A DNA stretch of 64,000 nt from the NCBI RefSeq assembly GCF_000230715.2, contig NC_019792.1, forward strand, positions 558,001 through 622,000. The letters are read 5' to 3'. This DNA is from Natronobacterium gregoryi SP2 (lineage in GTDB: Archaea > Halobacteriota > Halobacteria > Halobacteriales > Natrialbaceae). The notes under the pieces were generated by a model. The model saw only the letters and a list, made by a program, of their open reading frames with translations, was not told the DNA's origin and searched no databases. Shown here piece after piece: positions 29,666 to 30,022 of the stretch; positions within the stretch are counted from its first letter, which is position 1, and each line of letters starts with the position of its first letter. Made by a program: the position numbers and the translations under genes.

Positions 29666-30022
29666 ATGATGGAAAACAACGACGATTCGACGTTGGCTAA
29701 TCGACGTACGGTTCTTGCAGCCGCAGGGAGCATCGGTGCTGTTGCACTTGCGGGATGTGCAGACGACGAAGATCCGGACGAACCTGAGGAAGAAGGCGAC
29801 GCGACTGCCGATGCCGACGGCGAAGATCCGGACGAAGCGGAAGGCGAAGAAGGCGAAGAAGGCGAAGAAGGCGAAGAAGGCGAAGAAGGCGAAGAAGGCG
29901 AAGAAGGCGAAGAAGGTGAAGAAGGCGAAGAAGGTGAAGAAGGCGAAGAAGGTGAAGAAGGCGAAGAAGGTGAAGAAGGCGAAGAAGGCGAAGAAGGCGA
30001 AGAAGGCGAAGAAGAAGCCTAA
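29666..30022 (+). CDS. Tat lipoprotein made of Gly-Glu-Glu repeats
   Basis: 118 aa. The N-terminus has a twin-arginine signal (NRRTVLAAAGSIGAV) and lipobox ALAGC, so it should be exported folded and lipid-anchored. The mature part is almost all Asp/Glu: a short DDEDPDEPEEEG and ADADGEDPDEAE region, then about 19 Gly-Glu-Glu units to the end. There is no recognisable domain. The start is ATG 29666 or 29669; TATA-like TTTTATCT lies near 29626. It stands alone between the Nudix and creatininase genes. The tail could vary in length by repeat slippage. Confidence 0.7.
   Translation: MMENNDDSTLANRRTVLAAAGSIGAVALAGCADDEDPDEPEEEGDATADADGEDPDEAEGEEGEEGEEGEEGEEGEEGEEGEEGEEGEEGEEGEEGEEGEEGEEGEEGEEGEEGEEEA
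29843..30013 (+). repeat. 9-bp tandem repeat (GGC GAA GAA), about 19 units
   Basis: Units GGCGAAGAA run without interruption; in the second half GGC and GGT alternate, giving an 18-bp higher-order period. The tract is in frame and encodes Gly-Glu-Glu. This purine-rich strand is nearly free of C and T apart from the GGC/GGT third bases. Confidence 0.9.

Follow-up and report, generated by a model that had tools for sequence, protein, structure and literature searches.

Three kinds of described systems come close to the gene reported here, namely the poly-gamma-glutamate of Natrialba, the collagen-like proteins and the Tat lipoproteins of haloarchaea. Poly-gamma-glutamate of Natrialba is the product of a synthetase, and its residues are joined by gamma bonds. 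Haloarchaeal lipoproteins follow published rules (PMC2945643): their lipobox most commonly reads LAGC, the second Arg of the signal and the Cys are separated by 12-21 residues, and the residue next to the Cys is neither Asp nor Cys. No description of domain-free acidic haloarchaeal lipoproteins was found in searches of the open-licence PMC literature. The gene lies in a window, by which we mean the whole analysed stretch of 64,000 nucleotides (Natronobacterium gregoryi SP2, NC_019792.1, positions 558,001 to 622,000), which is part of a single 3.79-Mb contig.

A putative Tat lipoprotein with a polyacidic tail

The gene is an exact open reading frame from ATG to stop (Table 1). An earlier note, made from the letters of the window, had described its product as a surface lipoprotein composed of about 19 Gly-Glu-Glu repeats. 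As to repeats, signal and lipobox the description is borne out: exactly 19 consecutive GEE units occupy residues 60-116 of the protein, preceded by a Tat-type signal and a LAGC lipobox. The paired arginines form the twin-arginine motif of haloarchaeal Tat lipoproteins, 16 residues lie between the second of them and the Cys, and Ala follows the Cys, in agreement with the published lipobox rules (PMC2945643). Counted from Cys31, the mature part has 88 residues, of which 56 are Asp or Glu (64%) and none is Lys, Arg, Phe, Trp, Tyr or His, for a computed charge of about -56 at pH 7 and a mass of 9.2 kDa. The note took everything beyond signal and lipobox for repeat tail. The remainder is indeed polyacidic and domain-free, but an acidic stretch not made of GEE units is interposed between Cys31 and the tract.

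The sole Pfam match at E<=0.1 is Collagen (PF01391), at residues 60-115, with 40.7 bits over a cut-off of 27.2. All NCBIfam matches fall below cut-off, the collagen-adhesin models reaching at best 38 of 325 bits. No globular domain after the linker was thus found in either collection, at E<=0.1 in Pfam and above cut-off in NCBIfam. A weak AlphaFold2 prediction, from the single sequence without alignment, has a mean pLDDT of 56.8 and one short helix, within the signal. What the sequence supports is a lipoprotein of Tat type, the tail of which is polyacidic and free of domains; export and lipidation are predicted.

The 125 bases upstream of the gene (29541-29665) have a GC content of 44.8%, against 62.3% for the window. 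The TATA-like stretch found there (Table 1) is a candidate archaeal promoter, which would give a near-leaderless transcript. A scan for sigma-70 promoters and terminators, of little value for an archaeon, gave, for the minus strand, a single weak site resembling a promoter, and no terminator.

Table 1. Features of the lipoprotein gene (positions in the window) and loci compared with it
Feature	Position	Strand	Remarks
Tail-only lipoprotein coding sequence	29666..30022	+	118 codons (118 aa) plus stop
Signal peptide, 30 aa	29666..29755	+	RR at residues 13-14; ends in LAG of lipobox LAGC
Lipobox Cys31 codon	29756..29758	+	predicted lipid attachment site
Acidic stretch ahead of the tract, 28 residues	29759..29842	+	most of the diverged 54-bp duplication lies inside
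19 Gly-Glu-Glu codon triplets	29843..30013	+	9-bp tandem repeat
AT-rich, TATA-like stretch TATTTTATC	29625..29633	+	33-41 bases before ATG; read by eye
Stretch missing from nearest congener (G004)	29541..30125	.	boundaries approximate, by eye
33 loci with tail-only lipoprotein downstream of gfcR			L183, L185-L195, L198, L200, L201, L203-L205, L207, L208, L216, L222, L223, L226, L229, L235, L245, L250, L258, L262, L264, L270, L272

Formation of the tract

TRF identifies one array at the gene (29840-30014), with a period of 9, 19.4 copies, 95% matches and a score of 322. The second-best array of the window scores 139, and the top score per dinucleotide shuffle of the window (n=20) ranges from 42 to 69, which excludes chance as the origin of the array. 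The Gly codons run along the tract as C8 (TC)4 C3, where C and T are the third bases of 15 GGC and 4 GGT codons, and differences among the 19 units are synonymous only. The repeats had been called perfect, with a higher-order period of 18 bp. The 9-bp period holds, but the units are not identical, and the longer period is seen in the middle of the tract and not in the rest of it. An alternation of GGT limited to mid-tract is the pattern expected from one GGT duplicated by two-unit steps. Glu is encoded by GAA in 38 of 38 cases, while in five neighbouring genes GAA and GAG are used about equally, or GAG is preferred; the uniformity of the tract points to growth via unit copying. Ahead of the tract is found a diverged duplication of 54 bp (29758-29811 and 29812-29865, 70%). 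Judged from these traces, the linker was likely duplicated, and one unit was afterwards amplified. The suggestion that the tract could change length without loss of frame is supported as well, the units being in-frame and 9 bp long.

Repeats of other kinds occur in the window. A 32-bp tandem repeat of 2.5 copies (39596-39676) is found at the 3' end of an ORF of the universal-stress type (39003-39617, by eye), and several arrays of 21- and 30-bp repeats at 8481-9770 are perhaps part of a long coiled-coil gene. An ORF on the minus strand (40303-41187) is transposase-like, with a zinc-ribbon-like start, and in our assumption resembles IS1595-type elements.

A variable slot between conserved genes

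The nudix and creatininase genes flanking the lipoprotein gene are conserved in four congeners. In the nearest of them (G004), the creatininase of which is 94% identical, the aligned end of nudix and the start of creatininase are 87 bases apart, against 655 in N. gregoryi. Two congeners (G001, G003) host in the same place another gene of roughly 250 codons, and a third (G002) shows a gap about as large. Positions 29541-30189 make up a variable slot, near-empty in the nearest congener, filled by the other gene in two, and by the lipoprotein gene here. Its variability across congeners suggests that the lipoprotein gene was inserted, or was born locally, in this lineage; loss in the other congeners, instead of gain here, is less likely.

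No ortholog was found in the four other genomes of the genus, the own genome giving the sole match of five at E<=1e-6. The 83 N-terminal residues, used as a query on 125 genomes of the family, returned four foreign matches at E<=1e-8, in open frames of 380-457 aa. At the DNA level and with a cut-off of E<=0.01, positions 29538-29840 have matches in 68 further genomes of the family, and among the matches listed these are short stretches in the lipobox or acidic part only. Positions 30015-30190 match 12 other genomes of 61, which in G004 corresponds to the creatininase promoter stretch and in the others to short stretches.

A remnant of the gene filling the slot in other congeners was considered and rejected: comparison of the insert with the four congener loci returned the creatininase promoter side, and otherwise short or acidic stretches only. 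Similarities to sequences of G003 and G004 led to a membrane-type protein rich in Asp and Pro and to a frame resembling dehydrogenases, and were discarded, both being unrelated by eye.

A search of the N. gregoryi genome with the protein gave 37 places at E<=1, one of them the window gene, the open frame of which is the shortest of the set. The comparison drew on 15 of the 36 other places, L002 and L130 being left out, and further, non-tail sequence was present in each of the 13 that were read. The gene looks young and lineage-specific.

GEE tracts in other genomes

The earlier note had proposed to look for other Tat lipoproteins with GEE tracts. None was found in 125 genomes of the family, 391 genomes of the class, and collections of genome and viral contigs. 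Six consecutive units, (GEE)6, occur in 1 of the 125 family genomes, that of N. gregoryi SP2 itself. Four units, (GEE)4, occur in 6 of the 391 class genomes. In the five others the tract resides in open frames of 184-785 aa, and no lipobox signal was seen in these frames by eye; one of the five (L090) is by eye a Tat-exported, cupredoxin-like protein with a GEE-bearing linker and without lipobox. In the genome-contig collection, where records close to the source genome are possibly absent and some frames end at the locus edge, (GEE)8 was found in 39 stretches. None of these is named as haloarchaeal, and 21, which lie mostly within short open frames, are cyanobacterial. No Tat lipoprotein was present in the parts read of these stretches, nor in those read of the 12 stretches of viral contigs carrying (GEE)6. 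GEE as such is accordingly a minisatellite that recurs, not the sign of a family.

In Luteimonas aquatica (L066, NZ_JALBFU010000007.1) a single open frame contains 109 copies of the same GGNGARGAR 9-mer, and other long 9-mer runs reside in short, likely non-genic open frames of Nostocaceae and Okeania MAGs. In the window, about 28 kb from the tract, another protein (58457-58831, frame by eye) includes the sequence EEGEEGEE, and two GEE units at 58568-58585 are identical in DNA to the 9-bp unit of the tract.

Tail-only lipoproteins linked to gfcR

A family-wide search with signal and linker returned very short matches, and through these domain-free acidic lipoproteins of other genera. A query made from one of them had, at E<=1e-12, matches in 12 of the 391 genomes of the class, and in 12 of 12 the match lies on the same strand as, and downstream of, a gfcR-like gene. 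The gfcR protein has matches in 120 of 125 family genomes. One gfcR locus per genome was considered (the best match if two were present), together with about 1.5-2 kb downstream; 50 loci were read, and all 120 were scanned, tail-only proteins being defined by cut-offs that we set on length, D/E/G/N share, and paucity of aromatic or basic residues. Tail-only Tat lipoproteins were identified downstream of gfcR at 33 of the 120 loci, in 8 genera (Table 1); 31 come from the scan, while L198 and L204 were added from the reading. None was found on the strand opposite to gfcR in the scan of the 120 loci.

The 33 proteins have mature parts of 44-123 aa with a D/E share of 0.31-0.84. Any Lys or Arg is present in one of them, and one aromatic or His residue in five. 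Signals are better conserved than tails, with mean identities of 0.82 within and 0.69 between genera, against 0.51 and 0.31. Repeat units found at these loci include GMDDENGDEEN, ENGMDDDVEDDE and poly-Asp. Three of the proteins were scanned for domains; no Pfam family was found, and NCBIfam matches were below cut-off and confined to the signal part of one. Tandem arrays whose period is a multiple of 3 are present in all 33 tails, yet low-complexity coding DNA gives such arrays almost by itself, and the count is weak support for slippage.

Other lipoproteins were met as well. At some gfcR loci a second Tat lipoprotein is found, namely at L166:304-942 (minus strand) and also in L198, L200, L201, L203-L205, L219, L220, L225, L229 and L231, with DUF4399 in the one tested and a GHLHVIVDEGC-like motif in others. 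According to a motif scan, this lipoprotein of DUF4399 type is present in at least 11 of the 120 loci. In the genome G038 two other minimal lipoproteins were noticed, the mature parts of which count 27 and 31 residues.

The gfcR loci of N. gregoryi (G000) and of three congeners (G001, G002, G004) host no tail-only gene, and the gfcR protein search gave no match in the fourth congener (G003). Given its absence from four loci, a comparable need is not seen in the own genus of the window gene.

Signs of constraint on the gfcR-linked tails

Rates of dN/dS were calculated by a Nei-Gojobori script in 13 species pairs, some of which share a species and are not independent. Tail values are 0-0.20 in 10 of the 13 pairs, the other three being saturated at synonymous sites. 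Signal values are at or below 0.14 in ten pairs, 0.42 and 1.22 in two pairs with few changes, and one pair has no change. Since dN can come out too low when repeats are aligned, changes were also counted without gaps in three pairs of equal length. In the tails, codon positions 1, 2 and 3 have 3, 5 and 22 changes in the first pair, 0, 0 and 7 in the second, 14, 18 and 45 in the third. The gfcR-linked tails thus seem to be translated and under constraint, even though their repeat units and lengths turn over.

Discussion

We propose, with moderate confidence, that the gene encodes a recently born, lineage-specific Tat lipoprotein without globular domain, a disordered, lipid-anchored polyanion brush the length of which shifts by in-frame slippage. 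The chain would be exported by the Tat pathway and lipidated on Cys31, and would stay tethered at the outer face of the membrane, beneath the S-layer, as a disordered and hydrated polyanion. It may hold counter-ions and water, and behave as an electrostatic or steric brush. Selection, if any, would act on charge and length, not on residue order, and gain or loss of repeats in steps of 9 or 18 bp would alter the length of the tail and keep the frame. At birth, an acidic linker following the lipobox, as found in many haloarchaeal lipoproteins, may have been duplicated (54 bp) and then amplified, either in a gene that never had a domain, or following domain loss. By analogy with the gfcR-linked proteins, such a polyanion would be the likeliest mechanism, serving in surface charge, in hydration or as a spacer. 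Tail-only lipoproteins with other acidic repeats are frequent at the gfcR locus, and their tails differ in length between species; a role as spacer or brush gains plausibility from this. The searches gave no ortholog of the window gene, and signs of selection are hence limited to the gfcR-linked proteins.

A serious rival is that the gene is a young and functionless by-product. According to this hypothesis, which we hold quite possible, a short lipoprotein ORF, perhaps a truncated copy deprived of its domain, has become host to a growing minisatellite. Even if translated, it would be without a selected role and bound to decay. Occurrence in a single genome (1 of 5 in the genus at E<=1e-6, and 1 of 125 in the family for (GEE)6), the empty site in the nearest congener, and the all-GAA Glu codons of the tract, like those of copied units, are what such a history would leave. 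Moreover, the same 9-bp unit forms tracts in short and seemingly non-genic frames of other genomes, and in one case reaches 109 units. Yet signal, lipobox and stop are intact, synonymous changes are the only ones to have accumulated among the 19 units, and tail-only lipoproteins of related species are under purifying selection.

The proposal of a newborn brush may be part of a larger picture. Domain-free lipid-anchored polyanion brushes made by ribosomes, held by selection to their charge and length while in-frame slippage renews the repeat units, could form a kind of surface protein spread through the family and so far undescribed, of which the window gene would be a newborn member, independently arisen and met shortly after its insertion and the amplification of its repeat; we put this forward tentatively, and consider it somewhat unlikely.

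The note had also supposed that the tail may bind cations. A tail serving as a specific buffer of divalent cations (Ca2+/Mg2+), or as a mineral-nucleating surface, rather than as a general brush, would be in line with 56 carboxylates in 88 residues, but is improbable. No conserved binding motif was seen, and the D/E share of gfcR-linked proteins falls as low as 0.31, the place of the acidic residues being taken by Asn, Gly and Thr, which poorly fits a dense metal-binding site. Still less probable is a collagen-like triple-helical stalk, in which three chains, having Gly at each third residue over 57 residues, would wind together. The Pfam Collagen match is expected from any G-x-x repeat. The score of the match exceeds the Pfam cut-off, but the collagen-adhesin models remain far below theirs, the protein has no trimerisation domain, and Glu at both X and Y would place like charges on all chains, to be screened only by extreme salt. 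That the tract matters as DNA, or through an antisense frame of Phe-Phe-Ala repeats (minus strand, 30031-29633), is scarcely credible, since the opposite frame, although open for 132 codons, is so as an automatic result of the repeat and has no recognisable signal by eye, whereas the plus frame starts with a typical Tat lipoprotein signal.

Should tail-only lipoproteins prove to be real and under selection, then acidic linkers of haloarchaeal lipoproteins, beyond tethering domains, can be a product in their own right, namely a surface polyanion tunable by genetic means. The gfcR-linked family would then provide natural variants that differ in charge, length and repeat unit but have anchor and locus in common, and with which the role of acidic low-complexity surface sequences in high salt becomes testable. 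The window gene alone would show the birth of such a protein from a repeat.

Comparison with known systems

The window protein has in common with the gfcR-linked lipoproteins the signal, the lipobox, a domain-free acidic repetitive tail, and similar length and charge. These lipoproteins reside at a locus of their own, with synteny over 8 genera, and are made of repeat units other than GEE. The window gene lies instead between nudix and creatininase, the gfcR gene of the same genome being at G000:C1:2969617-2970264. Nor is the signal that of the gfcR-linked family (TRRRLIALSGAV.AAALAGC), the identity of the window signal being 0.36-0.55, against 0.41-0.59 to six other lipoprotein signals. From these features the window gene shares the build of the gfcR-linked proteins, and is not a demonstrated member of their family.

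The resemblance to haloarchaeal Tat lipoproteins at large concerns the twin-arginine signal, LAGC, the spacing from Arg to Cys and the acidic linker (PMC2945643). In 13 Tat lipoproteins of the own genome, however, domain-like sequence follows the signal, whereas in the window protein the linker is the whole protein. With collagen-like proteins (PF01391; SclA/SclB) the tract shares the periodicity, Gly being present at each third residue; it differs from these proteins in having no Pro in residues 60-116 and uniform Glu, and neither a trimerising or other domain nor a wall anchor. Poly-gamma-glutamate of Natrialba is likewise an extracellular glutamate polyanion of halophilic archaea (PMC5751247), and the analogy is functional only: the chain encoded in the window would be ribosomally made, alpha-linked and, as predicted, anchored by a lipid.
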